64,000 nt of DNA from Tupaia tana. Lineage: Eukaryota; Chordata; Mammalia; Scandentia; Tupaiidae. Where the stretch lies: NCBI GenBank assembly GCA_026018925.1, contig JAKSZU010000013.1, positions 2,480,001 through 2,544,000 on the forward strand. Reading direction: 5' to 3'. Below, in pieces: positions 20,935 through 64,000 of the stretch (its first letter is position 1; every line of letters starts with the position of its first letter). A program made the translations under genes and the position numbers. The notes beneath the pieces are model-generated. The model was not told the origin of the DNA. It was given only the letters and a program-made list of their open reading frames with translations, and searched no databases.

Positions 20935-21099
20935 AGGCTAGCAATGACTGGATCCCATGGTCCTCACCCACCAGCCATGTCCAAGACAAGACAGCAGGCC
21001 TGCACCTACCCAGCTTATCCTCATGAAATCTGAATGGGAGAGGTAGTGCCCATATGCACAAAGTGAAAACCTTTGAGGTCACTATCTCAAAATTAGCAA

Positions 21100-23000
21100 T
21101 TCTGAAAAAAACACAAACACACCTACTATAAAATAAAGATGCAAACACATTGTCATACATCCAAATATGCATACTACAAAATTCCTGAATGTGAATAACA
21201 GCCAAAACAGCCTCTCTGTGTTCAAACATATGTGCCAAATGCCCAAAACTCACAGAATACAATATACATAAGCCCCATAAAGTCAATTAAACACACACAC
21301 ATTCACCATCAATAATCTTCAAATACTGAAAATCCACCTTAAAAATGATAAGGATACATCCTCATACTTCGAAGAAACCCCAGGAAATTCTGAAAGAACT
21401 ATACTCCAGAAGAATAGACCACTTCTAAAAAACTTTGGACCACCACAAACTCCCAATACACACAGTCCCCCCGCCAAAAAAAAAAATCCCTGCATTCAGG
21501 ATATCCACACGCTCACAAACCCAAGCACACACGTGCAAATACTCCCAGTCCCTGAATACATGCACACCCAGAACATTATACAGAAACCCACACTCCAGAG
21601 GACGGCCTCCCCTCCGCCCCATTCTCCAGTGAGTCCCAAACACATGGAGAAATACTCGAGCATCTCAGAAGAAATACACTATCGATGCTCCTTATAAACG
21701 CATACTCAAAAGAATAAACTCACAGAATTGATCCACCTGTTGATGGATACACAGGCAAACTAGTGAACGTGCCCAAAGCACACAGAACTAACTCTAGTTA
21801 TCTCATCGTGGATGAATACACATAAAACTGCATCCAAATCCTAAATTATACCAGTGTTGTATATGAACCATCTCCACATTGTCAAATACTGTCCTATCTA
21901 GTGGACGACGTGAATGTATTCTGAGAACTGTGTCATAGAGTTTTATCTTTATGCAAACTCCATGGCATTGCTCAATGACCCCAAGCTGTCACTGTCTTAT
22001 AGGGCACGTGAGTGTGCTATGAAATAACCATATATGAAACAATTCCATAAAAACATAATCCTCACACATCCCTTAGAAACACAGAACCTCACTTCTCTAT
22101 CTGATACATGCATATTCAACTAGGAGAACATACAACCGTAAGAACCGCCTACTGATAAACGCAATCACATAAGCTCACTGGACAGTCGACCAAATGGCAA
22201 TTCCCCTTGGACACACTCGTTACCATGTAGTTCTCCACATGTCCCAGGTCTACCTTCGATGTGCTTGGATTCCCATTACAAATATGCAAACACGTAACCC
22301 TATCTCCACACACGCTCACATAGCCTCCCGCTACCTGAACGTCCCTCATCGTAGACGTCCAAATACTCACACAGAAGTCCTTCTTCCGCCCGCCAGAATA
22401 GAGAATCATACACACCCCACCTCACAGCTGCACACACTCATCTTATGACACACCCAAAATAGTCCCTGGGCCACCCTCACACACCGAGAAATCCAAACAC
22501 AGCTCTTGAAAGAAATCACAAAGAGAAACAGACATCACCTGAATACACAAGTGGTCCTCCCGCCTTTTCCGACGTACAACCCAGAGAGACCAAATACCCC
22601 CCAAGATAGAGAAGTCCGGTAATCCTTACACACCTGCCTTTACACACATACATGTTTAAAACACTCTTGGGACAAACATGCAAAATATTCCTCCGAGCCT
22701 CAAACGATCAACAGCTAAGGTCAACTCTTGGGGTACGCATACATCTCACATCCTCCAAATACAAACCCTGAACCCTACACACTCACATTACCGCAAATAT
22801 CCAGAGACATTTCCAAACCACATCTGTAAAGTCACCGAACAGCCTTTCACCAACCCATTAAATATGCAACGCACTTGTAACGGAGTTCATAAGAACACCT
22901 CCCCAACGGACACCCAATGGAGACAGGCAAGGAACCTCTCGTATCCCTTGAACCACTACCTGCCCAGGAAGCTACATCCACAAGTATACCACCCTAAGTA
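21100..23000. repeat. A/C-rich low-complexity tract, unit 1
   Basis: For nearly 1.9 kb the plus strand is strongly A/C-rich, with recurring CACACA, ACTCACAC, CCAAATAC and TACACAC motifs but no fixed period I can define. It resembles a decayed (CA)n-type expansion. The matching tracts lie at about 35230-37230 and 49460-51470. No coding frame is convincing. Confidence 0.6.
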
Positions 23001-23076
23001 GGGGTAAAAATAAGTACCCCACAGTTCCATAGAAATGAAACTAAAAATAAAACTGCCTACGCCGTTCCAATGGAAT

Positions 23077-23296
23077 AGCAGGTCAAACGTGTGTGTAGGG
23101 AGCCAGACGCACATGGCCAACGATGATTTGAACTCTAGTCCCCTGGTGGCTGGAATAACATGCACGGCGCTTCTGTGTGTATGCCCAGATCCTGACGTGG
23201 TGGAGGAAAAAGGGTTGCAGAGTGACCGCGCCCCACTGGGGTATGCTATTTGTCTTTCTCTCTCTGACAAGCACACACGCTCCCTAGCAGTAAACA
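23077..23296 (+). mobile_element. Ancient tRNA-derived SINE, unit 1
   Basis: Plus-strand sequence aligns along its length with the young SINE at 8125-8381: AGCAGGTCAAACG (head), GATTTGAACTCTAGTCC (B-box region), TATGCCCAGATCCTGACG, GAGGAAAAAGGGTTGCAG, CCGCGCCCCACTGGGGTATG, and a CTTTCTCTCTCTGACA end. It is much more diverged than the flank copies, so it was inserted before the array formed. Its tail has no clear poly-A. Confidence 0.7.
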
Positions 23297-23454
23297 GGGG
23301 AGAAAACGGAAAAACAGCGAGGCAGGCAGGCAGTCAGAAATCAGTGGGCAGCTCAGACATACTAGCCGAGGAACATCTGCTACATCGATTACTACCAATC
23401 ACGGAGTGCAGCCAGACCCTGCACGGGAAAACTCCTTCCTCCTTTCAGGCTCCC

Positions 23455-23575
23455 GGCCCTGGGCTGGAAGCCAGGTCCACATTCTAGTTCTGCGCTTTTA
23501 TCTGCAATCTCAACATTGGCCATGTGTCGTTAGGTACTCCAATTCCTTAAGTTCCTCACTTGAGAGAGAGATGCC
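23455..23575 (+). repeat. MIR-like remnant, unit 1
   Basis: The order GGAAGCCAGGTCCACATTCTAG, CATGTGTCGTTAGGTACTC, CTTAAGTTCCTCACTT follows the MIR core (GTGTGACCTTGGGCAAGT..TCAGTTTCCTC). Equivalent remnants lie at about 37686-37805 and 51926-52045. Confidence 0.4.
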
Positions 23576-24379
23576 CAAGGGCAGATAAAAACCCCATCAA
23601 GTCCAATAAACAAGGGAGACACTACGAAAACACTTTCCCTACATATTCATTAGCAAAGTTCACAGTAAAAGTAACACCTAACCCCATGCCCAGTGCAGCT
23701 CCCCTTCTCGGGCATCTGGACAGGCGAAGGCCTTTTTGGCACAGGGTGTGTGCCTTTGCTATGAAAAGTGTTCACTTTTCTATTAAATCAAGGGGAAGAT
23801 TGGGAGAGAATTGAAACTTCTCTCTTCCTACTTTACCTGTCTGTGGTTTCCCATTTCTGTGTCTTAGGGCCCGTCTTTAATCTTAGAAACCTGGATGTAG
23901 AAACAGAGCATTTCACACACCGCAGCTCAGCTCTCCCATCCGATAACATCACTTAGACCCTCCAGTCCATCCTCTTGACAAGCCAGAGCCCGTGAATACA
24001 CACAGGTAGTAAGTTTTACTGATAGAATACACGAGTGGCATACATTTGACAAGGAATTGAAGAGAAACTCGACTTTACTCTAGATTCTCTACAGGCAAAT
24101 GATTCACACCTAACGGTTTTGAAGATGTTTCCAAATGCCTAAAAAGCCAAGCAGTGCTTGAAACTCAACATCCGGGTATGTTTGCAAAGTTGCTCAGAGC
24201 GTGGATAAACGAGAGCAGTCAGGGCACGAATGTTTCTGGAGGTTTTTCTGCATGACCACCAGGTTCACGGGGGACTCGATGAGAATGTGCCTTGGATCCT
24301 GGCTCATTTGTCAGCGACAAAAACTACTGCTGGGCGGAACTGGGTAAGGGATTCAAAGGCCAACTAAGTTCTCCCCAAG

Positions 24380-24960
24380 GGCGTCACTACTGAGACATGA
24401 GGGAGGCAGCCCTGACTCAGTACAGGGACGCCGCCCTGCGCGGCAGCACAGCACAGAAGTAACCCTGTCTGCAGCTGGCCGGGCTCCCTGCTCCAAAGGC
24501 TTGCCTGCAGCGAGCTGGCCGCAAGAGGGCGCAGACCCGCCTGGGGCAGGGCAGCTGCACAGACACAGGAGGAGGTGCGCCCCCGAGCAGGTGCAGGCCA
24601 AGTGTGCACCTGCACCTGGAGGGGCCGGGCCCGGACTTCCATTACTTCCTCCTCATGTAACTGCTTCCCTCCCATGGCCGCCCCGCCCCAACTGCCGCCC
24701 GCGTCCGCGTGTCCCCCTGGGCGGGAACCGCTAGCAAGAGACGCTGGGTGCTGTTGCCACAAGGCCTGAGAACTGCCTCCGCGCGGCCCACGCGGCCTTA
24801 GGCTTTAAGCGCTACCGCAGGGCAAAGGAATGGCTGCCAGGGCCGCTGGGGAGCTTCTCTGAGGACAGCGACTAGTCCTGCAGACAGTCCTACCCGGCTG
24901 TCCTCCCTTTAAACCATGCACGCCTGAAACAGCCCTTCATGCTTTTCACATCGCAACCCT
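24380..24960. promoter_or_regulatory. CpG-rich block, candidate promoter, unit 1
   Basis: This is the most CpG-dense stretch of the unit (CCGCCCTGCGCGGCAGC, CGCCCGCGTCCGCGTG, CTCCGCGCGGCCCACGCGGC). It is surrounded by CpG-poor DNA and lies about 3.7 kb upstream of the first recognised coding exon, on the correct side. Alone it shows only base composition; promoter function for the NUTM2-like gene is inferred. No TATA box was identified. A plus-strand ATG at 24830 opens only a short frame. Confidence 0.5.
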
Positions 24961-27900
24961 GCCAAGAACGCACCGGGATGCCACCGCGGTGCAAGACTCT
25001 GGGAACCTGGACCCTAAGGCAGTGGACCCTCAGGTCGGGGCAGTGCGTCCACACTCTCCGAGCATCATTCCTTTCACTCTGTCTTGCTCACCCGTCCAGA
25101 AAATAGTATGGCCCTGTAGTCACACTCATTCCATTCTCAAGGTCCCATGGAAGATTTCTGGCCAACAAGTTTAAACCTGGGAAATGCTGTTATGGATACT
25201 TTGCTCTCATTCCATCCCTCGAGGTTTTCCTACCTCACTTGCTCTTAGCATGTCTGTACAATACCTAGAGATTGTCAGTAAACATGGCTCACAATGTTGC
25301 TTTCAATATGTCTGTTACACCTCTGAGCAAGACTTGACATGGAGGGTTGATTTCAGCCCACAGAGCAGAGAGGACAGGAACCACTTTACCCTTCTACACC
25401 CCGTACTGAGAAACGGCAGCGGGATTTCAGGTGGCACTAACGAAACTCCAGCAGTCAACTCACTGACTTGCACTTACAGTAGTTTCACAAGGAGCTTCAG
25501 TGTAGCTGTTTCTGATGATATGCCGACTAGTACCACTTCTCAATCCACAAGGTACCTTGGAAAGCCAAGGATGGCTTCAAACTGCATATTTTGGGCTTGC
25601 ACTCGTATCTACATGGACGCTGGGTATGGTATACCCAAGTCGCTGAAATACCAGGGCTCACTTAGGAATACCAAAGTCTGCTCTGGTTTTGGCATCTGTT
25701 CCTGTTCCACATGTGCTTAGAGACTAAGTCGTGTTGGACAGCTACTTCAAATTCCCTAGCAGGCCAGCCTGCAGGCTTTCTTCCTGCAGTCTTTGTGTTT
25801 TGTGGTAGAGTCAAGTTTAACCTTCTGAGCTTTCTTACTGCACGTTCTCTGTCTCAAGAGATAAAACACAGTAGCTTAAGAGAGTACACTTTGCAAGCAG
25901 GATTGCAGCTGAAATACTAGATGCCAATGAAATAGAAACTGAAACAAACCATGGACGCGTACTAGTAAAAGTATTTGCCAAGCAGTGCCGATTCAGCTTT
26001 CATTCTCCTTGGCTAAATTCAGCAATGCAATCTTCCGGATACATTAAACTGTAAGGCTACGTAGACCTCCTCATTCTGGAAGTGCAGCCCACAGAAAGAG
26101 AACACGACAGCAAGTACAAGGCCAGGCATTATAAATATCAGCAAAATTCTTAAAAATCCTATTATTATTTTAACCATTAGAGTGCTGAAACCTCTCAAAA
26201 AACTTTAAAATAACTTGCACACGTGGTTAGTTGCAAGATAAACCTCTGGACAGATCAAATGGAATCACATCACTGAGGAGTGCAAGCAGAAAGAAAACGG
26301 GGTGACCAAGGGAAAGCTGAGGGAGAAGACTCGTCACTGGGTTTTTTCGGTGTGTACAACTTCACTTTTGGAAGCATGCAAAATATTAAATTCCAGTCTT
26401 GATTTGTAACGAAAATCTCCAAAGACAGGGCAGCCATTCTACCTTGCAGGTAAAACTTCTCTCCTCACTGTAAGAGAATGAAAGTGCTCCCCTGTCTCCC
26501 CTCAACTGGCTCTCCTACCTGTGGAGTCGTCTGCTCTGTACACTTGCCTTACAATCCTGCTTCCGCTAGCTTAAAAAAAAAAAAAAAAAACTCATTTAAA
26601 AGGGTAAATATTTTACTGCTTAATACACAATGCATGTAGAATGAAAAAGATGAGGTTTCCTAGAAAGCCTTAGCTACAAAGTCACTCTTGGCTGTAGAAA
26701 GGGTAGATGACCCTGTCCTGCTGGAGTCTGCAGAGATTCCAGGAATGGACCACACTTGGGAAAAGTAGGGCTGTCTCCTGCAGGACTTAAGGGCACGTAG
26801 CCGGCAGATAGTCCTGCACTGCCGGCGACAGTGAGTTTTCAAACACCGAGTCCGCCACCTGCTATGCCTGCTATTTCTTAGACTATGTAGTCTCAGTTTG
26901 TGCAGAAAGGACAGTCACTGCTAGAATTACTCAGCCTATCTCTACGGTAGGGAATCAGGGTGAGATAAGGAGAACAGAAGTAGGTGGACTGTGAACATTG
27001 GAAGCACGAGGGGCAGGAATGGAAACCTTTGGGCTAATGATCTGAGAAGGCTCACAGATTGCCTCAGAGGCACACACCAGTGGTGGTGCCACTGAATTCT
27101 TGAAGGAACTTCAGGTTTTTGCCCACCTGCTAGAGCTCCCCATGGAATCCCACCCCTCTCCAAGCGCAGCTTCCCGCTGCCCCTCCCCCACCACAGAATG
27201 TCTGTTGCCCCACATTCTGCCAGTTTAAATTCAAATCTTGCCCTGCCCCACATGGGCTACTGGCTACTGAGCGCCTGCCACAGGCAGATCACGCTCTGGG
27301 TCCTGTGCTTAGCTCGTGCCGTAGTAGGGGCTGCTGACAGTCAGTCGTGGCAGTGCCCCCGTGTGTGACGATGCTGTCGGCAGGAGGTAAGCCTGGGGGA
27401 TAGGGAACTTGTTTTCAATCTCCCTATCATCCCCACAAGGCCCTGGGAATTGAAACTTGACTTGTCTGGGTAACAGCTGGTCGGACTGAGGAGAAGCGGG
27501 GAGACCGGACACCCCCAGGGCATCGTCCAGGTGAAACCTGGTCGACGGCCACCTCAGACTGAAGAGATGGGGACGAAGGCTCCTTAGAGTTTGTCACTCA
27601 CAGGAGATATATTGGATGAAGAGACGAATGGGATCAGAGGCGTCGATTTTTCTACAAGGGTGACAGGTCACACCAACGTAGCTCTGTAGAGGGGGGCTGC
27701 GATGTGTATGCTGTGGCCACAGGGAGGTCTGAGACATGTGCTTTAGGAGACTGGATCTTACTCTTGGTCAGTTCTCAGAGACTTCACCTGTAGAAACCTT
27801 GATCCCAGGGGACCGGTGGGAACGAAGGGCCTGCGGTGAACAGTGCTGAGTAGGCTTGGCTCTGACTGCATCCTCAGTGAAATACCCTCCACGGAAGTGA

Positions 27901-28584
27901 GGCTGGAAGGGCTCTCTAACTGCCACCACCCAGAGATGCTCAGCTGTGTCTTTCCCCCGGTGGCTCCGCTTCCTGTATAGGAGCTGCTGTCCTTGACTGA
28001 ACAAGGCAGGGAAGCCGTGTATCCGTAACCACAATGGGGCTTGGCTTTCCTTAGGGTGTCCTGAATTGTGTCCCTTTTGTGGAAATGTGGCATTTCAGAA
28101 CCTACTGACGGTGAGCCAGTACTTAACGATGCAACCTCACCCTTCACTTTCTTGTCCAGGGGAGGCGTTGGCTCACACACAACTCTATGGTGTGTCATTA
28201 TCAGGGACAGACGGCGAGTACTGTGGGCTCTTCGCTGCAAGGGCCTACGAGGGCTGTTTTCCATTATACGAGAGGAAGTACAGTGGCATCCAATGAGATG
28301 ATCTCCTGTTATTAGAACGACAAGCAGGACAGACGTCCTGACGGACCGGGTACACATGTGTGCAAGCTGTCCTCCTTGCCTCAGATTTTCCTGAGGTCCT
28401 ACTACACAAAGGGCGCCTTCGACAGGACTTTGTCCCACCTGAATTGTGGCTCCTTCCCGCTTGCTGGTGGGGCCTTACTACTTTGTGGGGAGGTATCATG
28501 AGAGGACCATCCATTTACCACAACGCAGGCTCTTGTGACCAGCCTTTCCTCCTACGCCACCCACCTCTTTCCCTTTCTCCACAG
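24961..28584. other. Upstream / first-intron region of unit 1 gene, no exon recognised
   Basis: About 3.6 kb between the CpG-rich block and the first recognised exon. It contains an A17-18 run at about 26572-26590 and two incidental frames (178 codons at 25184-25720 plus strand; 226 codons at 27758-28438 minus strand), neither with family similarity. The NUT-family first coding exon, a few codons beginning MAS in human genes and ending with one base before CATCTGCA, should lie here or in the CpG block, but I could not identify it. Equivalent regions are about 39192-42816 and 53432-57057. Confidence 0.5.
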
Positions 28585-31500
28585 CATCTGCAGTTCTGGG
28601 ACAGGACAAGACCCCCAACTCCAGCTCTCCCACAGCTCCTTTCCTGGGGCTGCCCTGCTCACAGCCCACTCTTGACCCCGCACACCAGCTGCCCAGGGAG
28701 CAGCCCCCGGGCCCTGTCCTGACTGCAGCGTTTCCGCCTGGCTGCCCCTTGGTGCTGTCTGCTCCCGTGACACCTTTGGAGGCATCAATGGGGACTCACG
28801 GCCCGACCGCGCCTGGCACCATCAACATCGTTCTGCCGGTCGGTGCCGACCGAGGGCCTGCGCAGGCTGCTCCCAGTCAGGCCTCTGTCCTGAATCCGGC
28901 CCCCGTCAACTGGAGCGCCCCAGGAACCCTCTCTGGAGGTGTGGACGGTGCCCCTCCCCTCCTCTTGGCAGCTCCTGTTGTGCAGACCGTTACGCCTGCC
29001 CCGTCCGCCGGGGTCTCCCAGGTCATCCGGGGAGGCTGGACCCCAGCTCAGCCTCCTCCAGCTCCACCCCTGGTGGCCCAGATCACTCCCATCACGGCCC
29101 CAGCGACCACTGGGCCGCAGCCACAAATGGCTTTTGCTGATAGCCACCTGGACACCTCCCAGCCCATGGCCTCGCTGGACAGCTCCTGCAACCCCGGGAG
29201 TGTTTACAAAAACTTCCGGCGCTGGCAGCGCTTCAAGACCCTGGCCAGGAGCCACCTGCCCCAGAGTCCTGATAGCGAGGCTCTGTCCTGCTTCTTCATG
29301 TGAGTACCTGCTGCAGGGGAGTGGGACTTCTCTTTGAGCTCACCCATAGAAAGAAGGCAGGGAGGGATGAGGAGGCGGAGTCAGTGGGGGAGCCTGGGGA
29401 CAGGTTCAGAGGGGGATGACATCTGCTTGGGCGGAGCTACCTTCTCTGCAATCCTAACGTCCCTCCGGTCATGGCGCACGGTCAGGTGACTGACCTAAAC
29501 TGACCCTCACCCGCCTGTGGGCGTGACCCATCTCTGTCAATAAACCCTACGGTAATATGTTCAGGAGAAAACAACTCTGACAACGCTTCTTATACATCAC
29601 GAGTCAACGTGTGTCTTAGTTGCTGGGCTCCACGAGCCTATTCCATCCTCGTATCCCCATCTGCAGCAGGGACCTGTGTGCTCTCGGCCACAAGGGACAT
29701 CAGGTGGAAGGGGACTGAGGGGTGCTGGGCCCCGGAGGGAACCTGACTGTGAAGGACAGGATTAAATCTCATCACCTCCCAATAGACCTGCCTCAGAATG
29801 GTCACACTGGGGGTTGCCCCTGAAGCATGGGTATTTGGGGGACATGGCATTTAGCACAGAGACGCAGGCCCTGGGGACTCATGGACACCAGCGGACACCT
29901 GAAGTGACTGCTGTTGACGAGTGATCATGGGAGGGGCTGCTGGGCTTCAAAGAGCCCACCAAGGGGAGACTGAGACAGGGACTTAGGTCGGAGAGATGTG
30001 ATGAGGCGCAAGGAAGGGGAGGTGTGTGGGGCCGGGTTAGCTGGGGAGCGGGTGAGACTTCAGAATGTTCTAAGCCCAGGCACTTACAGCCCAGTGCTGC
30101 GGTCCCTGTCCCGCCTGACGCCCGCCATGTCGCTGGAGGAGGGCCTGTCCCGGGCCATGCAGGAATGGCAGCGCACAAGCTCCTGGGAGCGCATGAAATA
30201 CTACGAGATGGCGGCCAAGTGAGTCTGGGGTCCTGGGCAACGGGGCTCTGTGGTGGGTGAGGGTGGGTGACAATGGGGTCTGTGTGAGGGGCTTTGCAGC
30301 CCAGCCCATGAGGGTGGTTGTGGACCAGCACAGGCCCTGGGTGGCTCAGTCCCTGTCCCTCCCACAGCGAGCCTGTGGTCTTTCTGTTCCAGCGTCTCCA
30401 TGGGCCCCACTCACCCGTGGTCTTGGTCGACCCCGACCTAGATACAGACAGTGGGCAGGGGCTGCAGGAGCCAGGGCAGCCCAACGGGGGTCCCCTCCAG
30501 GATAGGGGTCAGCTCGGCCATCCAGCCTACTGCCTTCCTGGAGCTGCTGACTCGGAGAGGATGGGATGGCCTTTCCTCAGGAAACGTGGCCACATAGCGG
30601 TCGCTGCCATCCCAGAAGGGCTGGGGTGGAAGAGGTTGGTCAGGAGAAGCCAGTAGCTCAGACACCGAGTGCATCCCTGCCTGCCTGCCCCTGCTCCATG
30701 GCAGTCCCCTCCGTTCAAATACCAAACATGGCACAGCCTCAGAGGAAACCAGTCTCCTCTCAGTCAGCCATCCTCATCTCTCCAACCTCAAGGGCTCACC
30801 GTCAAGCCTTAGTCCTGGGTCTGGGCGTGGTTCCCCGGTTTATCCACGTAAAACTCATCCCCAGTGTATCTCCAGGCCTTTGGCCCCCTTGTGCGGTCTG
30901 GACAGGGACAAGAGAGGACCTGAGGGCCCTGCCCAGGGCACAGGCTGACTTGGTGCAAAAGCCATGGCCTTTCAACGGGCCCTGCACATGCCCGAGACAC
31001 CGAGTGCCCCCACACTGTGCTTCGGGCCTGGGAATGCTTCCTCCTGGCTTGGCCCTGTTCGGGTCTGCACAGTTCGCCCCAGGCCTGTCCACCCCTCCCT
31101 GGTGTCTGGTGCTGGGGGCTGGAGCCTGGCCTCCCACTCAGCAGGGCCGGGATCTTCTTCCCCACAGGTTCGTGGAGTTCGAGGCTGAGGAGAAGATTCA
31201 GCAGCTGTACTGGCTGAAGGGCTCCCAGTGCCTGTCTCCTGCAGCTCCACCGGAGCCTGACCCTCCAGGGCTCCCGATCCCTGAGGCTGTCCAGGAGCCA
31301 GGTATGGACCCACAGGCTGACAGTCGCCTAAAAAAGGCCCAAGGGTCCGAGGAGGCCACTGTCCCCACGTCCCCTGCTCTTCAGTAAAGAGGGCATTTGC
31401 CCTTGCAAGCAGGGAGCACACCGGGGATCCTGGGATCTTGGCTGTCCAAGGCCGTGAAGTGAGGACTGGCCTGGGCGTGGGTCTCAGCTACTCTCAACAA

Positions 31501-33960
31501 ACCGCCTGACCAGGAAGCGGCCCAATGGGGAGAGAACCTAGGCCTGGGATGGCTCCAAACTCCCTCCCACCTGCCCCTCACGTGGATGCCCACCCCTCAT
31601 GGGTCCTGGGGTCCAGCCTGGGCCATCTTTCTACCCTTTGCATCCTGCTCCAGTCCCACTGTGGGTGGAAGTGGCAGCTGGAGCCCCCTGCCACATGCTG
31701 GTCTCCTCCTTCCTCCCAGGGTGCAGTGTCCCCAGGAAGGCCTGCCCCGAGGCCACGCCCAGCCACCTGTCACCATCCAGCGCTCCTCAGAGGCCAGACC
31801 CCAAGGGGCCAAAGGACATCCCGCCTGAAGCCGAGCAGGAGTATGTGGACATCATGAAGGGGCTGCTGGGACACGGTGGCCAGAGGGCAGAGGATGCCGT
31901 CCAGCCAGGACAGGAGGATGGGGCGTTCCCCGACCTGGGGCTCCTGAGCTACATGGAAGAGCTGTGCTCCCAGGAGGACTTTGTCACCAAGGTGGGCTGT
32001 CCTGGTTGCTGGTGTCTGCATGTTCTGGGGAGTCCCCCAGGCCTAGTAACTCAGCTGTACTGCTCAGCTCCTGACGGGGGGGAGTGAATGTGTGCGTGTG
32101 TGTGGGTGTATCTCCGTACGTTACTGTGGTCACTGTGTGTGTGTTTGTGGACACACGTGCGCATGCTACTGTGATCGTCTGTGTGTAGGTGGTGGGTGTG
32201 TCTGTGTGCCACTGTGGCTGCTCTATGTGTGTGTGGGGGTGCACGTTTCTATCCTACTCTGGCTGCTTTGTATATGCGTGTGGGTGTGTTTCTAAGCGTT
32301 CCCGTGACTCTGTGCGTGGTTAACGTGTGAGTGGTACACCAAGTGTGTCTGTGTATACGTGTCTCTCTGTGTGAGAGTGTGTGCTTCTTGTGTCCCTCTG
32401 CCTTGTGGGTGTGTAGGTATGTTAAGCGTTGCTTTGTTCAGGGTGAGTTTTACCATAGATGTCTGTGGTATGTGTCTCTGTGGGTCAGGGTGATGGGGAC
32501 GGTAGTGCTGTTGTATTTTCCACGTGTGAGTAGGCATGTCTGTGTGATTTGCATTTCTGTGTGTTCCTCTGTGTGGCCACAGACATGTATACGTTATGTG
32601 TACGTCTATCAGCGTTTCCTTTTCGGCGTTTACATGTAAATATCTGTGTGCGAGTCTGTGGGTGTTTGTGCGTGTGTGTGTGTCTGTGTGAGTCTCTGTG
32701 CGTATTAGGTGGACTCCACGATTTACAGTCACCTGGCAGTGCGCATGGGGCTGGGATGGGGGGTGCCCAGGACCCCGGGCCCCAGGCTCCTCTTTCCAAG
32801 GTCCCGACAGCTCTCTTCCTTCCACCCTAGGTGGAGGCCATCCTTCACCCACAATTCCTGGCAGAACTGCTCTCCCCAAAAGCAGGGATGGATCTCTTGG
32901 CCCTAATGGAGGAGCTGGAGCAGGAGGACAGGCTCGCCCCAGATCAGGTACCAGAGGACGGAGGGCTATCAGAGCGACCAGGGGTGACAGACTCCAGGGA
33001 GACCAGGAAGGGCAAGACACCTGGTAGACCAGGGACAGTGCGATACCATGGAAATGAGGGAGAGAGGAACATCGGGCAGACCAGGGAAGGAGAGATACTA
33101 GGTAGATCAGGTGGGAGGAACATCAGGGGGAACACGGTGACCAGATCAGGGCATTCTCAGCTTCCCCGCCTCCCCTAAGGTCCTGCCACTACCCTCCGCC
33201 CCCTCGTGACACTTGGCACAGAGGAACTCATATCCACTCTCCTTCCTCCCAGCTGGTGGAGAAACACCTGCAGGCCCTGAAGGAGGACAGGGGCGACGAG
33301 GCAGCCCCAGGTGCCCCTGGAGCACCTGTCCTGGGGCCCAGTAGATTTACGTCTGCGGCCTGCCGAGAAGAAGAGAGAGATGACCGTGGACCGCACGAAG
33401 GGATCGTTTTGGAGACCTCCCTGCCACAGAAGGCTGCCCAGGACCCTGAGAGACATGACGGTGGACATGCTGACATTCTCTGGCCTGAGGACACTGCTGT
33501 CATCTTAGGGCGTGTGGGGACACACCCACTGAGCACTGCTGGGCCAGCCTCTCCACGCCAGGGACACAGACTCTCTCATCCTTGCCCGGGGACCAGGGGA
33601 GCCTCAGGCGGTGTAGGCACCTCGCCTGTCAGGGGGATGTGCTGGCCAGCAGATGGGTCCAGCGAGGACGAAGAGCAGCTCCCCAGCCTGGCCTTCTTCA
33701 TGGCCTCCCCGCACAGCCTGCTGCCCTGGGTGCCAGCCCTGAGCCCTGCCCCCACCTCGGGCCGTCTCCGTCCTGGAGGTCGCAGGCCCCGGGGAGCAAC
33801 CAAGGCCCGATCTGCACACAGAAGAGGCCTGAGCTCAGCTGCCCGTCTGCCTTCCAAGTCAGAGAAGCGAGCGCTCATGGGAGGTCCCATCCCTAGTAGT
33901 AAGAAGCTGAAACTGAGGCCTGAGTTTGGGGTTTCTGCAGGGCAAGCCCTGGCTCTGTGA
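28585..33960 (+). CDS. NUTM2: NUT family member 2-like gene, copy 1 (exons 2-7)
   Basis: Spliced gene of the NUT family, nuclear and mainly testis-expressed; NUTM1 recruits p300/CBP, and NUTM2 function is poorly defined. Exons: 28585-29299, 30090-30218, 31168-31301, 31720-31991, 32831-32947, 33253-33960; every intron is GT-AG and phases agree. They encode 690 residues after the missing first exon. Exon 2 holds a proline-rich part and then the family block [20 protein letters not shown]. Exons 2/3 join as [13 protein letters not shown]; exon 3 has [13 protein letters not shown]; exon 4 [11 protein letters not shown]; exon 5 [18 protein letters not shown] and [14 protein letters not shown]; exon 6 [16 protein letters not shown] and an acidic end. 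Exons 5-6 correspond to the NUTM1 acidic p300-binding region. Exon 7 ends in a serine- and lysine-rich part ([20 protein letters not shown]) and stops 28 codons early. First in-frame ATG in exon 2 is 28788. Length fits NUTM2 rather than the longer NUTM1. Confidence 0.88.
32080..32715. repeat. (TG)-rich degenerate tract in intron 5, copy 1
   Basis: Between exons 5 and 6 about 630 bp of the plus strand are made of TGTGTG, GTCTGTGTG and TGTGGGTGT variants. The matching tracts are 46310-46945 (copy 2) and 60551-61190 (copy 3). Any long open frame across it is a product of the simple composition. Confidence 0.8.
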
Positions 33961-34274: not shown

Positions 34275-34299
34275 GATTGTTCTGTTGGAAATGCTCTCA

Positions 34300-53431: not shown

Positions 53432-56400
53432 GCCAAGAACGCACCTGGATGCCACCGCGGTGCAAGACTCTGGGAACCTGGACCCTAAGGCAGTGGACCC
53501 TCAGGTCGGGGCAGTGCGTCCACACTCTCCGAGCATCATTCCTTTCACTCTGTCTTGCTCACCCGTCCAGAAAATAGTATGGCCCTGTAGTCACACTCAT
53601 TCCATTCTCAAGGTCCCATGGAAGATTTCTGGCCAACAAGTTTAAACCTGGGAAATGCTGTTATGGATACTTTGCTCTCATTCCATCCCTCGAGGTTTTC
53701 CTACCTCACTTGCTCTTAGCATGTCTGTACAATACCTAGAGATTGTCAGTAAACATGGCTCACAATGTTGCTTTCAATATGTCTGTTACACCTCTGAGCA
53801 AGACTTGACATGGAGGGTTGATTTCAGCCCACAGAGCAGAGAGGACAGGAACCACTTTACCCTTCTACACCCCGTACTGAGAAACGGCAGCGGGATTTCA
53901 GGTGGCACTAACGAAACTCCAGCAGTCAACTCACTGACTTGCACTTACAGTAGTTTCACAAGGAGCTTCAGTGTAGCTGTTTCTGATGATATGCCGACTA
54001 GTACCACTTCTCAATCCACAAGGTACCTTGGAAAGCCAAGGATGGCTTCAAACTGCATATTTTGGGCTTGCACTCGTATCTACATGGACGCTGGGTATGG
54101 TATACCCAAGTCGCTGAAATACCAGGGCTCACTTAGGAATACCAAAGTCTGCTCTGGTTTTGGCATCTGTTCCTGTTCCACATGTGCTTAGAGACTAAGT
54201 CGTGTTGGACAGCTACTTCAAATTCCCTAGCAGGCCAGCCTGCAGGCTTTCTTCCTGCAGTCTTTGTGTTTTGTGGTAGAGTCAAGTTTAACCTTCTGAG
54301 CTTTCTTACTGCACGTTCTCTGTCTCAAGAGATAAAACACAGTAGCTTAAGAGAGTACACTTTGCAAGCAGGATTGCAGCTGAAATACTAGATGCCAATG
54401 AAATAGAAACTGAAACAAACCATGGACGCGTACTAGTAAAAGTATTTGCCAAGCAGTGCCGATTCAGCTTTCATTCCCCTTGGCTAAATTCAGCAATGCA
54501 ATCTTCCGGATACATTAAACTGTAAGGCTACGTAGACCTCCTCATTCTGGAAGTGCAGCCCACAGAAAGAGAACACGACAGCAAGTACAAGGCCAGGCAT
54601 TATAAATATCAGCAAAATTCTTAAAAATCCTATTATTTTTTTTAACCATTAGAGTGCTGAAACCTCTCAAAAAACTTTAAAATAACTTGCACACGTGGTT
54701 AGTTGCAAGATAAACCTCTGGACAGATCAAATGGAATCACATCACTGAGGAGTGCAAGCAGAAAGAAAACGGGGTGACCAAGGGAAAGCTGAGGGAGAAG
54801 ACTCGTCACTGGGTTTTTTCGGTGTGTACAACTTCACTTTTGGAAGCATGCAAAATATTAAATTCCAGTCTTGATTTGTAACGAAAATCTCCAAAGACAG
54901 GGCAGCCATTCTACCTTGCAGGTAAAACTTCTCTCCTCACTGTAAGAGAATGAAAGTGCTCCCCTGTCTCCCCTCAACTGGCTCTCCTACCTGTGGAGTC
55001 GTCTGCTCTGTACACTTGCCTTACAATCCTGCTTCCGCTAGCTTAAAAAAAAAAAAAAAAAAACTCATTTAAAAGGGTAAATATTTTACTGCTTAATACA
55101 CAATGCATGTAGAATGAAAAAGATGAGGTTTCCTAGAAAGCCTTAGCTACAAAGTCACTCTTGGCTGTAGAAAGGGTAGATGACCCTGTCCTGCTGGAGT
55201 CTGCAGAGATTCCAGGAATGGACCACACTTGGGAAAAGTAGGGCTGTCTCCTGCAGGACTTAAGGGCACGTAGCCGGCAGATAGTCCTGCACTGCCGGCG
55301 ACAGTGAGTTTTCAAACACCGAGTCCGCCACCTGCTATGCCTGCTATTTCTTAGACTATGTAGTCTCAGTTTGTGCAGAAAGGACAGTCACTGCTAGAAT
55401 TACTCAGCCTATCTCTACGGTAGGGAATCAGGGTGAGATAAGGAGAACAGAAGTAAGTGGACTGTGAACATTGGAAGCACGAGGGGCAGGAATGGAAACC
55501 TTTGGGCTAATGATCTGAGAAGGCTCACAGATTGCCTCAGAGGCACACACCAGTGGTGGTGCCACTGAATTCTTGAAGGAACTTCAGGTTTTTGCCCACC
55601 TGCTAGAGCTCCCCATGGAATCCCACCCCTCTACAAGCGCAGCTTCCCGCTGCCCCTCCCCCACCACAGAATGTCTGTTGCCCCACATTCTGCCAGTTTA
55701 AATTCAAATCTTGCCCTGCCCCACATGGGCTACTGGCTACTGAGCGCCTGCCACAGGCAGATCACGCTCTGGGTCCTGTGCTTAGCTCGTGCCATAGTAG
55801 GGGCTGCTGACAGTCAGTCGTGGCAGTGCCCCCGTGTGTGACGATGCTGTCGGCAGGAGGTAAGCCTGGGGGATAGGGAACTTGTTTTCAATCTCCCTAT
55901 CATCCCCACAAGGCCCTGGGAATTGAAACTTGACTTGTCTGGGTAACAGCTGGTCGGACTGAGGAGAAGCGGGGAGACCGGACACCCCCAGGGCATCGTC
56001 CAGGTGAAACCTGGTCGACGGCCACCTCAGACTGAAGAGATGGGGACGAAGGCTCCTTAGAGTTTGTCACTCACAGGAGATATATTGGATGAAGAGACGA
56101 ATGGGATCGGAGGCGTCGATTTTTCTACAAGGGTGACAGGTCACACCAACGTAGCTCTGTAGAGGGGGGCTGCGATGTGTATGCTGTGGCCACAGGGAGG
56201 TCTGAGACATGTGCTTTAGGAGACTGGATCTTACTCTTGGTCAGTTCTCAGAGACTTCACCTGTAGAAACCTTGATCCCAGGGGACCGGTGGGAACGAAG
56301 GGCCTGCGGTGAACAGTGCTGAGTAGGCTTGGCTCTGACTGCATCCTCAGTGAAATACCCTCCACGGAAGTGAGGCTGGAAGGGCTCTCTAACTGCCACC

Positions 56401-57057
56401 ACCCAGAGATGCTCAGCTGTGTCTTTCCCCCGGTGGCTCCGCTTCCTGTATAGGAGCTGCTGTCCTTGACTGAACAAGGCAGGGAAGCCGTGTATCCGTA
56501 ACCACAATGGGGCTTGGCTTTCCTTAGGGTGTCCTGAATTGTGTCCCTTTTGTGGAAATGTGGCATTTCAGAACCTACTGACGGTGAGCCAGTACTTAAC
56601 GATGCAACCTCACCCTTCACTTTCTTGTCCAGGGGAGGCGTTGGCTCACACGCAACTCTATGGTGTGTCATTATCAGGGACAGACGGCGAGTACTGTGGG
56701 CTCTTCGCTGCAAGGGCCTACGAGGGCTGTTTTCCATTATACGAGAGGAAGTACAGTGGCATCCAATGAGATGATCTCCTGTTATTAGAACGACAAGCAG
56801 GACAGACGTCCTGACGGACCGGGTACACATGTGTGCAAGCTGTCCTCCTTGCCTCAGATTTTCCTGAGGTCCTACTACACAAAGGGCGCCTTCGACAGGA
56901 CTTTGTCCCACCTGAATTGTGGCTCCTTCCCGCTTGCTGGTGGGGCCTTACTACTTTGTGGGGAGGTATCATGGGAGGACCATCCATTTACCACAACGCA
57001 GGCTCTTGTGACCAGCCTTTCCTCCTACGCCACCCACCTCTTTCCCTTTCTCCACAG

Positions 57058-60000
57058 CATCTGCAGTTCTGGGACAGGACAAGACCCCCAACTCCAGCTC
57101 TCCCACAGCTCCTTTCCTGGGGCTGCCCTGCTCACAGCCCACTCTTGACCCCGCACACCAGCTGCCCAGGGAGCAGCCCCCGGGCCCTGTCCTGACTGCA
57201 GCGTTTCCGCCTGGCTGCCCCTTGGTGCTGTCTGCTCCCGTGACACCTTTGGAGGCATCAATGGGGACTCGCGGCCCGACCGCGCCTGGCACCATCAACA
57301 TCGTTCTGCCGGTCGGTGCCGACCGAGGGCCTGCGCAGGCTGCTCTCAGTCAGGCCTCTGTCCTGAATCCGGCCCCCGTCAACTGGAGCGCCCCAGGAAC
57401 CCTCTCTGGAGGTGCGGACGGTGCCCCTCCCCTCCTCTTGGCAGCTCCTGCTGTGCAGACCGTTACGCCTGCCCCGTCCGCCGGGGTCTCCCAGGTCATC
57501 CGGGGAGGCTGGACCCCAGCTCAGCCTCCTCCAGCTCCACCCCTGGTGGCCCAGATCACTCCCATCACGGCCCCAGCGACCACTGGGCCGCAGCCACAAA
57601 TGGCTTTTGCTGATGGCCACCTGGACACCTCCCAGCCCATGGCCTCGCTGGACAGCTCCTGCAACCCCGGGAGTGTTTACAACAACTTCCGGCGCTGGCA
57701 GCGCTTCAAGACCCTGGCCAGGAGCCACCTGCCCCAGAGTCCTGATAGCGAGGCTCTGTCCTGCTTCTTCATGTGAGTACCTGCTGCAGGGGAGTGGGAC
57801 TTCTCTTTGAGCTCACCCATAGAAAGAAGGCAGGGAGGGATGAGGAGGCGGAGTCAGTGGGGGAGCCTGGGGACAGGTTCAGAGGGGGATGACATCTGCT
57901 TGGGCGGAGCTACCTTCTCTGCAATGCTAACGGCCCTCCGGTCATGGCGCACGGTCAGGTGACTGACCTAAACTGACCCTCACCCGCCTGTGGGCGCGAC
58001 CCATCTCTGTCAATAAACCCTACGGTAATATGTTCAGGAGAAAACAACTCTGACAACGCTTCTTATACATCACGAGTCAACGTGTGTCTTAGTTGCTGGG
58101 CTCCACGAGCCTATTCCATCCTCGTATCCCCATCTGCAGCAGGGACCTGTGTGCTCTCGGCCACAAGGGACATCAGGTGGAAGGGGACTGAGGGGTGCTG
58201 GGCCCCGGAGGGAACCTGACTGTGAAGGACAGGATTAAATCTCATCACCTCCCAATAGACCTGCCTCAGAATGGTCACACTGGGGGTTGCCCCTGAAGCA
58301 TGGGAATTTGGGGGACACGGCATTTAGCACAGAGACGCAGGCCCTGGGGACTCATGGACACCAGCGGACACCTGAAGTGACTGCTGTTGACGAGTGATCG
58401 TGGGAGGGGCTGCTGGGCTTCAAAGAGCCCACCAAGGGGAGACTGAGACAGGGACTTAGGTCGGAGAGATGTGATGAGGCGCAAGGAAGGGGAGGTGTGT
58501 GGGGCCGGGTTAGCTGGGGAGCGAGTGAGACTTCAGAATGTTCTAAGCCCAGGCACTTACAGCCCAGTGCTCCGGTCCCTGTCCCGCCTGACGCCCAGCA
58601 TGTCGCTGGAGGAGGGCCTGTCCCGGGCCATGCAGGAATGGCAGCGCACAAGCTCCTGGGAGCGCGTGAAATACTATGAGATGGCGGCCAAGTGAGTCTG
58701 GGGTCCTGGGCAACGGGGCTCTGTGGTGGGTGAGGGTGGGTGACAATGGGGTCTGTGTGAGGGGCTTTGCAGCCCAGCCCATGAGGGTGGTTGTGGACCA
58801 GCACAGGCCCTGGGTGGCTCAGCCCCTGTCCCTCCCACAGCGAGCCTGTGGTCTTTCTGTTCCAGCGTCTCCATGGGCCCCACTCACCCGTGGTCTTGGT
58901 CGACCCCGACCTAGATAAAGACAGTGGACAGGGGCTGCAGGAGCCAGGGCAGCCCAATGGGGGTCCCCTCCAGGATAGGGGTCAGCTCGGCCATCCAGCC
59001 TACTGCCTTCCTGGAGCTGCTGACTCGGAGAGGATGGGATGGCCTTTCCTCAGGAAACCTGGCCACATAGCGGTCACTGCCATCCCAGAAGGGCTGGGGT
59101 GGAAGAGGTTGGTCAGGAGAAGCCAGTAGCTCAGACACCGAGTGCATCCCTGCCTGCCTGCCCCTGCTCCATGGCAGTCCCCTCCGTTCACATACCAAAC
59201 ATGGCACAGCCTCAGAGGAAACTAGTCTCCTCTCAGTCAGCCATCCTCATCTCTCCAACCTCAAGGGCTCACCGTCAAGCCTTAGTCCTGGGTCTGGGCG
59301 TGCTTCCCCGGTTTATCCACGTAAAACTCATCCCCAGTGTATCTCCAGGCCTTTGGCCCCCTTGTGCGGTCTGGACAGGGACAAGAGAGGACCTGAGGGC
59401 CCTGCCCAGGGCACAGGCTGACTTGGTGCAAAAGCCATGGCCTTTCAACGGGCCCTGCACATGCCCGAGACACCGAGTGCCCCCACACTGTGCTTCGGAC
59501 CTGGGAATGCTTCCTCCTGGCTTGGCCCTGTTCGGGTCTGCACAGTTCGCCCCAGGCCTGTCCACCCCTCCCTGGTGTCTGGTGCTGGGGGCTGGAGCCT
59601 GGCCTCCCACTCAGCAGGGCCGGGATCTTCTTCCCCACAGGTTCGTGGAGTTCGAGGCTGAGGAGAAGATTCAGCAGCTGTACTGGCTGAAGGGCTCCCA
59701 GTGCCTGTCTCCTGCAGCCCCACCGGAGCCTGACCCTCCAGGGCTCCTGATCCCCGAGGGTGTCCAGGAGCCAGGTATGGACCCACAGGCTGACAGTCGC
59801 CTAAAAAAGGCCCAAGGGTCCGAGGAGGCCACTGTCCCCACGTCCCCTGCTCTTCAGTAAAGAGGGCATTTGCCCTTGCAAGCAGGGAGCACACCGGGGA
59901 TCCTGGGATCTTGACTGCCCAAGGCCGTGAAGTGAGGACTGGCCTGGGCGTGGGTCTCAGCTACTCTCAACAAACCGCCTGACCAGGAAGCGGCCCAATG

Positions 60001-62433
60001 GGGAGAGAACCTAGGCCTGGGATGGCTCCAAACTCCCTCCCACCTGCCCCTCACGTGGATGCCCACCCCTCATGGGTCCTGGGGTCCAGCCTGGCCCATC
60101 GTTCTACCCTTTGCATCCTGCTCCAGTCCCACTGTGGGTGGAAGTGGCAGCTGGAGCCCCCTGCCACATGCTGGTCTTCTCCCTCCTCCTAGGGTGCAGT
60201 GTCCCCAGGAAGGCCTGCCCCGAGGCCACGCCCAGCCACCTGTCACCATCCAGCGCTCCTCAGAGGCCAGACCCCAAGGGGCCAAAGGACATCCCGCCCG
60301 AAGCCGAGCAGGAGTATGTGGGCATCATGAAGGGGCTGCTGGGACACGGTGGCCAGAGGGCAGAGGATGCCGTCCAGCCAGGACAGGAGGATGGGGCGTT
60401 CCCCGACCTGGGGCTCCTGAGCTACATGGAAGAGCTCTGCTCCCAGGAGGACTTTGTCACCAAGGTGGGCTGTCCTGGGTGCTGGTGTCTGCATGTTCTG
60501 GGGAGTCCCCCAGGCCTAGTAACTCAGCTGTACTGCTCAGCTCCTGACGGGGGGGAGTGAGTGTGTGCATGTGTGTGGGTGTATCTCCGTACGTTACTGT
60601 GGTCACTATGTGTGTGTTTGTGGACACACGTGCGCATGCTACCGTGATCGTCTGTGTGTAGGTGGTGGGTGTGTCTGTGTGCCACTGTGGCTGCTCTGTG
60701 TGTGTGTGGGGGTGAACGTTTCTATCCTACTCTGGCTGCTTTATATATGCGTGTGGGTGTGTTTCTAAGCGTTCCCGTGACTCTGTGCGTGGTTAACGTG
60801 TGAGTGGTACACCAAGTGTGTCTGTGTATACGTGTCTCTCTGTGTGAGAGTGTGTGCTTCTTGTGTCCCTCTGCCTTGTGGGTGTGTAGGTATGTTAAGC
60901 GTTGCTTTGTTCAGGGTGAGTTTTACCATAGGTGTCTGTGGTATGTGTCTCTGTGGGTCAGGGTGATGGGGACGGTAGTGCTGTTGTATTTTCCACGTGT
61001 GAGTAGGCATGTCTGTGTGATTTGCATTTCTGTGTGTTCCTCTGTGTGGCCACAGACATGTATACGTTATGTGTACGTCTATCAGCGTTTCCTTTTCGGC
61101 GTTTACATGTAAATATCTGTGTGCGAGTCTGTGGGTGTTTGTGCGTGTGTGTGTGTCTGTGTGAGTCTCTGTGCGTATTAGGTGGACTCCACGATTTACA
61201 GTCGCCTGGCAGTGCGCATGGGGATGGGATGGGGGGTGCCCAGGACCCCGGGCCCCAGGCTCCTCTTTCCAAGGTCCCGACAGCTCTCTTCCTTCCACCC
61301 TAGGTGGAGGCCATCCTTCACCCACAATTCCTGGCCGAACTGCTCTCCCCAAAAGCAGGGATGGATCTCTTGGCCCTAATGGAGGAGCTGGAGCAGGAGG
61401 ACAGGCTCGCCCCAGATCAGGTACCACAGGATGGAGGGCTATCAGAGCGACCAGGGGTGACAGACTCCAGGGAGACCAGGGAGGGCAAGACACCTGGTAG
61501 ACCAGGGACGGTGGGATACCATGGAAATGAGGGAGAGAGGAACATCGGGCAGACCAGGGAAGGAGAGATACTAGGTAGATCAGGTGGGAGGAACATCAGG
61601 GGGAACACGGTGACCAGATCAGGGCATTCTCAGCTTCCCCGCCTCCCCTAAGGTCCTGCCACTACCCTCCGCCCCCTCGTGACACTTGGCACAGAGGAAC
61701 TCATATCCACTCTCCTTCCTCCCAGCTGGTGGAGAAACACCTGCAGGCCCTGAAGGAGGACAGGGCCGACGAGGCAGCCCCAGGTGCCCCTGGAGCACCT
61801 GTCCTGGGGCCCAGTAGATTTACGTCTGCGGCCTGCCGAGAGGCAGAGAGAGATGACCGTGGACCGCACGAGGGGATCGCTTTGGAGACCTCCCTGCCAC
61901 AGAAGGCTGCCCAGGACCCCGAGAGACATGACGGTGGACATGCTGACATTCTCAGGCCTGAGGACACTGCTGTCTTCTTAGGGCGTGTGGGGACACACCC
62001 ACTGAGCACTGCTGGGCCAGCCTCTCCACGCCAGGGACACAGACTCTCTCATCCTTGCCCGGGGACCAGGGGAGCCTCAGGCGGTGTAGGCACCTCGCCT
62101 GTCAGGGGGATGCGCTGGCCAGCAGATGGGTCCAGCGAGGACGAAGAGCAGCTCCCCAGCCTGGCCTTCTTCATGGCCTCCCCGCACAGCCTGCTGCCCT
62201 GGGTGCCAGCCCTGAGCCCTGCCCCCACCTCGGGCCGTCTCCGTCCTGGAGGTCGCAGGCCCCGGGGAGCAACCGAGGCCCGATCTGCACACAGAAGAGG
62301 CCTGAGCTCAGCTGCCCGTCTGCCTTCCAAGTCAGAGAAGCGAGCGCTCATGGGAGGTCCCATCCCTAGTAGTAAGAAGCTGAAACTGAGGCCTGAGTTT
62401 GGGGTTTCTGCAGGGCAAGCCCTGGCTCTGTGA
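57058..62433 (+). CDS. NUTM2: NUT family member 2-like gene, copy 3 (exons 2-7)
   Basis: Same structure: exons 57058-57772, 58563-58691, 59641-59774, 60193-60464, 61304-61420, 61726-62433, all GT-AG. It is open over 690 residues and differs from copy 2 at only two: S for T in RLTPxMSLEEG (codon AGC at 58597) and R for C in RGMxWPADG (about 62112). Exons 2, 4, 5 and 6 encode the same protein as copy 2. The premature TGA is also shared. Near-identity with copy 2 points to recent duplication or to homogenisation by gene conversion. Confidence 0.88.
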
Positions 62434-62517
62434 CTGGCTGCACCCTCACAGCCTCAGCAGAGGAAGTGGAATATACTGGCCTCTGAGCAGAGGAAGACGC
62501 CACACTGCAGCCAGTAA
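62434..62517 (+). pseudogene. Untranslated remnant of the NUT C-terminal tail, copy 3
   Basis: Same frame and sequence as in copy 1, following the shared TGA at 62431-62433 and ending in TAA. Confidence 0.8.
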
Positions 62518-62741
62518 GGGTGTGCGGGGTCTCTGCAGGCCACCTTCGGGGAGGGCCTGGACTCGGTGTTGGGCCGTCTGCCGCCTGCACCTCAAAGGGA
62601 CCAAGGGAGCCCCAGCCCCGATGACCCAGCTGCTCCTCAGATTTTCGGGGGTGGGGTGGGTGGGGCATTTGTTGGGGGTGTGGGGAGAGTGGGAGGCGCT
62701 GGGAGGTCAGGACCTCCAGGTTGGTCTTCGTATGTACATAA

Positions 62742-62747
62742 AATAAA
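62742..62747 (+). terminator. AATAAA polyadenylation signal, copy 3
   Basis: Identical position relative to the stop codon as in copy 1. Confidence 0.7.
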
Positions 62748-63525
62748 GATTGTTCTGTTGGAAATGCTCTCAAGGTGCTGCCCTCTGAGCTTGGGGGGTG
62801 TACGGCTCAGTGAAGGGAGGACAGTGAGGATGTGGGATTGGGAGGAGCCCTGTGCATCGACCCAGCTGACAGACCGCGGTCTTCCTTGCACATTTTGGTA
62901 GGCCCCTGACACTGCTCCTGGGAGCTGACAGACTCTGACACCCCAGCACCCTGTTCCTCATCTCTGTCTCAGGGGAATCTTGCTTGTTTAGGGGTGTCCC
63001 CTGAGGATTCCTTGTTCTCTGATTCCCTGAAATACCTTTGGGTGCTTACGTGCTCTGGGACTCTCTGACCTCTGGGCCACTAACCAATTTTCTGACCTGA
63101 AACCTGGGCCTGGCACTGTTTTGGGGGGAGCTTCTCTCTGCTTCCCTGAAAGAGGCCACAGAGAAAGGATGGAAGGGTCTCCCCTCCCCTATACGGCTTG
63201 GCCTTTTCCTGAGGGTTGGGAATGGAAAGGCCTGGCTTCCAGTGTACCTGTTCTAGGCTCAGAGCTCGCACCACCCTTGCCAAAGGGGGTTGTGAAAGTG
63301 AGCAGTGGTGTCAACACCTCTGGATCCTAATCAGGGGACAGCAGGGCAGCGGGCTGAGAGAAGAGTGAGGAGGCCTCCGTTCGGTGGGAGCATTTGGGAT
63401 ACGACTGGCAGGAGCCCTTTCCCCACTGTGAGGGTTCTTTCCCTGCTTTCTGGCAGGGGAGTCCTGTCCTCCTGACTGAGGGGAACCACCTCGTTGTGGC
63501 CCTGGGGACTGACCTCGGGGTCTGA

Positions 63526-63917
63526 AGGCTAGCAATGACTGGACCCCATGGCGTGGGGGGGGGTCCTCAACCACCAGCCATGTCCAAGACAAGACAGCAG
63601 GCCTGCACCTACCCCGCTGATCCTCATGGGATCTGGGTGGGAGAGGCAGCGCCCATACACACAGTGTGAAAATCTTGGAGGTCCACTTTGTCTAAACTAG
63701 CAATTTTGCAAACAACACAAACACCCCACTGGAAGATAAAGACACAAACACAGTGTCATAGCCCACAAATACACATACTTCAAAATTCCTGAATGTGAGG
63801 AACAGCCAAAACAGCCTCTCTGTGTTCAAACCTATGCACTGAATACCCACGTCTCACAGAATACAAAATACGTAAGCCCCATAAAGTGAATCGCAGGAGC
63901 GCGTGCTTGCGCGCGCA

Positions 63918-63959
<42 letters not shown>

Positions 63960-64000
63960 CACCATCAATACTCTTCAAATACTGAAAATCCACCTTAAAA
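63526..64000 (+). repeat. Tandem array unit 4, first 475 bp
   Basis: The unit start AGGCTAGCAATGACTGGACC recurs and the sequence follows units 2 and 3 to the end of the window. The array therefore continues past this window; total copy number is unknown. Confidence 0.92.
63919..63956. repeat. (AC)19 microsatellite, unit 4
   Basis: Nineteen AC dinucleotides, with a changed lead-in (GCGTGCTTGCGCGCGCAG). It is the longest of the four copies. Confidence 0.95.

Follow-up and report, generated by a model that had tools for sequence, protein, structure and literature searches.

The closest described relatives of the genes treated here are the NUTM2 (FAM22) genes, of which the human copies are dispersed. 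We analysed a tandem array of NUTM2-type genes in a window of Tupaia tana DNA, the window being the whole 64,000-nucleotide stretch (C242:2480001-2544000), and C242 being a 107-Mb sequence in a genome of 2.95 Gb in 1198 sequences. Multiplication of NUTM2-type genes has likewise been tabulated for another mammal, the Etruscan shrew, where the cited table gives multi-copy NUT family member 2G-like genes, one with 7 copies resolved (5 expected from depth) and another with 3 resolved and 2 collapsed (4 expected) (PMC10850158). Human NUTM2F is counted as a core duplicon, a class that the cited part of that source describes as without orthologs in other species (PMC7450558). The same two families appear in both lists, as NUTM2G-like and speedy protein E4-like genes are among 15 duplicated Etruscan shrew genes (PMC10850158, same table), and the human core duplicons named include NUTM2F and SPDYE1 (PMC7450558). 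A different gene family, DUB/USP17, is described in the cited part of PMC2874809 as likewise lying inside tandem repeats. No paper with NUTM2 gene family expansion as its topic was found in the open-licence literature. Multi-copy NUTM2 amplification is a known kind of system, to which the present locus contributes a tandem unit that is resolved, together with its mosaic structure and its setting within an inverted pair.

We read the locus as an intact NUTM2-type gene that has truly been amplified in tandem within a larger NUTM2 cluster, with concerted evolution, and assign this reading a probability of roughly 0.75. Self-BLAST of the window yielded three complete head-to-tail units of 14118, 14232 and 14241 bp and the start of a fourth. 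Positions 21480-49753 match 35708-64000 at 99.3% over 28.3 kb, and 21480-35521 match 49946-64000 at 98.96%; given this length and identity, chance is not an option as the source of the self-match. The start sequence AGGCTAGCAATGACTGG is found in the window only at 20935, 35053, 49285 and 63526, and once more at C242:2557771 in the neighbouring sequence. Pairwise ungapped identities amount to 98.80% (units 1 and 2), 98.73% (units 1 and 3) and 99.61% (units 2 and 3). The layout is as follows.

20935..35052, + strand: unit 1, left edge of the array, 14118 bp; its first ~0.5 kb (to ~21500) diverged from units 2-4
35053..49284, + strand: unit 2, 14232 bp
49285..63525, + strand: unit 3, 14241 bp, 99.6% identical to unit 2
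63526..64000, + strand: start of unit 4, the remainder lying outside the window
20935..27370, + strand: 5' flank, 6.4 kb, present in every complete unit (coordinates of unit 1)
35043..35062, + strand: unit-to-unit junction, ...GGGGTCTGA followed directly by AGGCTAGCAATG...

The stretches neighbouring the window on C242 were added to the array analysis. There, the fourth unit is complete (14245 bp, C242:2543526-2557770), and a fifth starts at C242:2557771 and continues for 7.4 kb, up to a 100-N gap at 2565194-2565293. As the array runs into this gap, its copy number of at least four complete units is a lower bound. The mutual divergence of the four complete units is 0.4-1.8%. An earlier sequence-only reading of this DNA had proposed a head-to-tail array with a unit of ~14.2 kb that runs off the window, and both self-BLAST and the unit coordinates bear this out, with the array continuing to the assembly gap. 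The self-comparison which it suggested returned the repeats at 98.96-99.3% identity, and its expectation of more than three intact tandem copies agrees with the four complete units, each with an open gene. Its shared start at the four positions in the window is right for the boundaries, but the start of unit 1 is not near-identical to the others (65-74 mismatches in 520 bases).

An array of this kind could also be produced by the assembly itself, if haplotypes or misjoined reads had been set in tandem where there are truly one or two units. The unit divergence falls within the range of haplotype differences, and this array as well as its inverted counterpart, described below, reach 100-N gaps. 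However, the same junction is traversed four times without N, the four distinct-sequence units exceed two haplotypes, and the second, inverted locus also has two incomplete units at the same left edge. We consider such an artefact decidedly improbable.

Every complete unit holds a single + strand gene, modelled with seven coding exons and 696 codons and free of internal stops. The gene is open throughout, with all introns GT-AG, in all three units of the window and in the fourth unit outside it. The putative first exon measures only 16 nt (MLSAG) and was placed by its ATG, its splice donor and a fitting frame and phase. It had been missed when six open exons per unit were counted from the letters, so the exons are indeed open, but they number seven in the model, as is presumably also the case in human NUTM2. 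The gene models and their landmarks are listed below.

27371..33960, + strand: NUTM2-type gene of unit 1, 696 aa, intact, GT-AG introns
27371-27386, 28585-29299, 30090-30218, 31168-31301, 31720-31991, 32831-32947, 33253-33960, + strand: exons of unit 1
41603..48192, + strand: NUTM2-type gene of unit 2, 696 aa, intact
41603-41618, 42817-43531, 44322-44450, 45400-45533, 45952-46223, 47063-47179, 47485-48192, + strand: exons of unit 2
55844..62433, + strand: NUTM2-type gene of unit 3, 696 aa, intact
55844-55859, 57058-57772, 58563-58691, 59641-59774, 60193-60464, 61304-61420, 61726-62433, + strand: exons of unit 3
31720..32947, + strand: region matching the p300-binding part of NUT (TAD1-like and TAD2-like), unit 1 exons 5-6
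33958..33960, + strand: TGA stop, common to units 1-4 and gene f
34269..34274, + strand: AATAAA, likely polyadenylation signal of unit 1

Residues 16-696 of the unit-1 protein match positions 3-706 of the 731 in the Pfam NUT model (PF12881) with an E value of 5.7e-232 and a score of 772.7, where the cut-off is 25 bits. A NUT search of the genome gave at least 62 exon-level matches; among the matches listed, one NUTM1-like gene is located on the sequence C353 and all others on C242. At least eight full-length open NUTM2-type genes are present in the genome, four of them in the array (units 1-4) and the others being a (2.447 Mb), e (2.826 Mb), f (5.497 Mb) and i (5.726 Mb). Further copies are less complete: b1 has exons 1-5 and then an N gap, b2 carries a stop in exon 3 and is truncated in intron 3, d is a pseudogene, and two NUT fragments lie near 2.472 and 5.703 Mb. 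Protein identity amounts to 96.3-99.7% within the array, 79.7-82.6% between the array and a, i, e and f, and 43.2-44.3% between the array and NUTM1 over the exon pieces compared. Residues 77, 102, 256, 538 and 591 are examples of positions at which the array units carry variants of their own.

That the array genes are NUTM2 rather than NUTM1, as first proposed from the letters, is supported with caution, because a separate NUTM1-like gene exists on C353 and is only 43-44% identical. The last exon of this gene is spanned by an open frame of 680 aa, whereas that of the array genes measures 708 bp, and we take a short last exon to be the mark that separates NUTM2 from NUTM1. A duplicated NUTM1 as the source of the array would explain the shared Pfam family and the match to the NUTM1 p300-binding region, but it conflicts with the separate C353 gene, the last exons and the low identity, and we regard it as extremely unlikely. 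Compared with NUTM1, the array genes share the NUT match and the p300 TAZ2-binding region, but their last exon is much shorter, the basic tail is absent and three TAD1 contacts are changed. The likeness to the NUTM2 family comprises the Pfam NUT match, the short last exon, the multiplication by duplication and the presence of FBPase genes on the same sequence. FBPase genes are located on C242 at 9.81-9.93 Mb, a neighbourhood that presumably corresponds to human 9q22, and WAPL is on another sequence. Given the presumed human positions, the surroundings of the array fit a 9q22-like rather than a 10q23-like setting; a human 10q23-like location was rejected with WAPL elsewhere.

The units are mosaics of one another. 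A total of 89 sites split units 1-4 two against two, and within the block 27635..34051 (+ strand) all 66 such sites group units 1 and 4 against 2 and 3. Upstream of this block, 14 of 19 sites group 1 and 2 against 3 and 4, four group 1 with 4 and one groups 1 with 3, while from 34248 on all four sites group 1 with 2. Only 10 runs of sites were observed, where 20000 shuffles of site order gave a minimum of 19. Phase switching in the assembly could imitate part of this mosaic, which is a point in favour of the artefact discussed above. Low divergence upstream of the gene was also considered as a sign of functional constraint and was rejected, as a recent upstream copy common to units 1-3 accounts for it better once unit 4 is compared as well.

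Exchange appears to extend to distant copies as well. At 33680..33929 (+ strand), unit 1 and gene f are identical at 250 of 250 bases, while genes a and e reach 92.7%; in the next window, partly past the stop, identity to unit 1 drops to 94.0% for f and 78.9% for a. This stretch is likely an interlocus conversion tract between unit 1 and gene f. In the intronic window 30430..30679 (+ strand), unit 1 is 98.8% identical to gene a, 97.2% to e and 77.5% to f, and a second conversion tract is likely here. Such tracts, common to distant copies, suggest interlocus conversion.

The array forms part of a larger duplication. The region 2.438-2.512 Mb matches 5.664-5.736 Mb, approximately 3 Mb away, in opposite orientation, with main colinear pieces 95.6-99.3% identical, and this inverted copy measures at least ~74 kb, as the match reached the end of the sequence examined. 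At least two more, incomplete units (b1 and b2) were found in it beside the same left array edge. In the stretch 20935-21460, comparison of unit 1 with units 2, 3 and 4 gives 68, 65 and 74 differences in 520 bases, respectively, but comparison with b1 gives 19 in 522. Beyond ~21500 the relation is reversed: unit 1 becomes near-identical to the other units, and it is b1 that stands apart, with 5-10 differences per 100 bases for ~400 bases. On the simplest reading of these patterns, the diverged edge would predate the inverted duplication and the interior would since have been homogenised within the array. Since the diverged edge is common to both copies, formation of the tandem array probably preceded the inverted duplication. 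Head-to-tail units, mosaic exchange and a diverged outer edge, as expected for a concerted tandem array, are all found at this locus.

With regard to the origin of the unit, the left edge of the array reads ...AGACTGC followed directly by AGGCTAGC, and compared with the unit junction no homology is evident beyond 1-2 bases. Copies a, e and f have a common 3' flank that continues past the junction breakpoint. Together, the lack of long junction homology and this shared flank indicate that the first tandem duplication probably occurred without long homology there and may have joined unlike ends. Unequal crossing-over and gene conversion would then have added and homogenised units, with the outer edge escaping. 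Parts of the 5' flank show 70-77% similarity to the regions that precede other NUT copies; every copy thus brings its own upstream region.

Compared with human NUTM2 and its dispersed copies, we find a compact 14.2-kb head-to-tail array plus an inverted copy on one chromosome. The contrast drawn in the sequence-only reading between a compact tandem expansion and dispersed human copies thus holds for the tandem part and is incomplete for the rest, as the array also lies inside a dispersed, inverted segmental duplication on the same chromosome; tandem and dispersed modes both operate here. The lineage-specific amplification of a germline gene suggested in the same reading may apply, the germline role being put forward by analogy with the NUT family.

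In post-meiotic male germ cells, where NUT is expressed, it directs the hyperacetylation of H4 by p300/CBP; the cited part of the same source reports that NUT-driven histone hyperacetylation precedes histone removal in sperm and that Nut-knockout male mice are infertile (PMC9103113). Binding of NUT to p300 TAZ2 occurs via two motifs with contacts including Y405, P408 and I414, and an I414G change abolished peptide binding, as given in the cited part of PMC9870903. The stretch of the array protein that corresponds to TAD2 (NUT 419-470) matches chain A of PDB entry 7xez with an E value of 7.5e-13 over query residues 51-101. The exon-2 frame alone gave no match among solved structures. Among the TAD1 contacts, the array proteins keep L410, L411 and Y413 and carry F for Y405, L for P408 and M for I414; NUTM1 of the same genome retains Y405, P408 and I414. 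Recruitment of p300 by the array proteins is likely, judged from these motifs, and the role may be weaker or altered. By analogy with the family, the products would be largely disordered, testis-expressed adaptors that use two short motifs to recruit p300/CBP and that promote the acetylation of spermatid histones, and the main effect of extra copies would be a higher or more variable dosage under weak constraint.

The ratio of nonsynonymous to synonymous substitution rates (dN/dS) of units 1-4 against a, i, e and f was 0.61-0.74 in all 16 comparisons (Fisher p 0.0007-0.042), and among a, i, e and f it was 0.45-0.61 in all six (p 4e-6 to 0.042); these comparisons are not independent. The simple dN/dS method tends to give too low a ratio. 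The lowest values were obtained for the p300-binding region, with 0.34-0.47 in the four comparisons made and 8-10 nonsynonymous changes each. At the end of exon 2 and in exons 5-7, several windows are 88-100% identical to the older copies, whereas many intron windows are at 72-85%. Between units 2 and 3, the coding sequence is less diverged than the introns (3/2091 vs 14/4499). Weak constraint on the NUTM2-type family is supported by these data; for the extra array copies, dN/dS is indistinguishable from 1.

Several observations weigh against an amplification of intact, useful genes. Among units 1-4, dN/dS cannot be told from 1 in any of the six comparisons (Fisher p 0.072-1), and b1 against a, i, e and f gave 0.50-0.77 with one of the four not significant (p 0.16). 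Coding sequence is more diverged than introns between units 1 and 2 (28/2091 = 1.34% vs 47/4499 = 1.04%) and between units 1 and 3 (1.39% vs 0.96%), and the first half of exon 2 has diverged from the older copies like introns (window 28680, 77-82%). P408 is Leu in all eight NUTM2-type copies, with Phe for Y405 and Met for I414. The assembly is imperfect at this locus, as the array and the inverted-copy array each run into an N gap. Furthermore, the basic C-terminal tail is lost from the array proteins: 27 more in-frame codons follow the TGA up to a TAA at 34042-34044, and this unread tail resembles the strongly basic C-terminal end of NUTM1. With the TGA ahead of the NUTM1-like tail, the array proteins lack this end, a difference from the NUTM2 family that results from the shared TGA; copies a, i and e terminate at a different, nearby stop.

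Part of this evidence would suit a neutral passenger array, i.e., a recombination-prone segment that grows and shrinks without benefit and whose frames are open as the copies are young or homogenised. The coding divergence, as high as that of introns in two of three array pairs, the dN/dS among units, which is indistinguishable from 1, and relatives such as pseudogene d and the truncated b2 all point this way. However, the genome has eight full-length open frames, among them copies with a protein identity of ~80% (a, i, e, f). All 16 comparisons with these older copies gave a dN/dS below 1, and several coding windows are better conserved than many intron windows, although the first half of exon 2 differs and conversion confounds this comparison. 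We consider the passenger explanation possible but doubtful. A more specific proposal sees the cluster as a germline locus that evolves fast through conflict or sperm competition, tuning the amount of p300 drawn into spermatid chromatin like ampliconic testis genes. It would cover the exchange among tandem units and two inverted clusters 3 Mb apart, the loss of the basic tail and the coding changes that match or outpace those in introns, and we rate it as unlikely. Our preferred reading remains the real, concerted amplification of an intact gene.

Apart from the NUTM2-type genes, the window yielded few other features. A 181-aa open frame at 25175-25720 is identical in all three units of the window, but it was not accepted as a gene, as a Pfam search with the unit-1 frame gave no match and the frame is part of a homogenised stretch. 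No hits came from transfer RNA (tRNA) and Rfam searches of the window, nor from an NCBIfam search. Positions 1-17000 contain dense repeated blocks, ~70-82% alike and resembling fragments of long interspersed element 1 (LINE-1), and a frame at 14345-14965 (- strand) matches a reverse-transcriptase model with an E value of 0.0013, below the Pfam cut-off. A tRNA-like short interspersed element (SINE) of ~280 bp occurs at 3461-3736, 8124-8395, 9518-9795 and 16496-16587; it had no convincing match to 10 short motifs of known SINEs. Among 26 similar stretches in C242:2440001-2604000, none falls within the array.

Around the array, a ~195-bp tandem satellite lies between gene a and the array (C242:2464072-2470202), with about 20.7 and 9.2 copies and 76-80% matches, and is also present in the inverted copy; inside the inverted copy it aligns less well than the main colinear pieces. 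The inverted-copy array is broken by a 100-N gap at C242:5663628-5663727 between b1 and b2, and its copy number is a minimum. To the right of the N gap that ends the array, C242:2566343-2579573 resembles the inverted upstream region of another NUTM2-type copy (~67-87% similar in pieces). No gene body was found there among the NUT matches listed; it may sit in the gap or be lost.

This genome, in which at least eight NUTM2-type genes are intact and four of them form a near-identical array, offers a natural dosage series for asking whether NUTM2 proteins act on p300 in spermatids. Together with the Etruscan shrew table, the locus indicates that NUTM2 amplification is not limited to the human copies.

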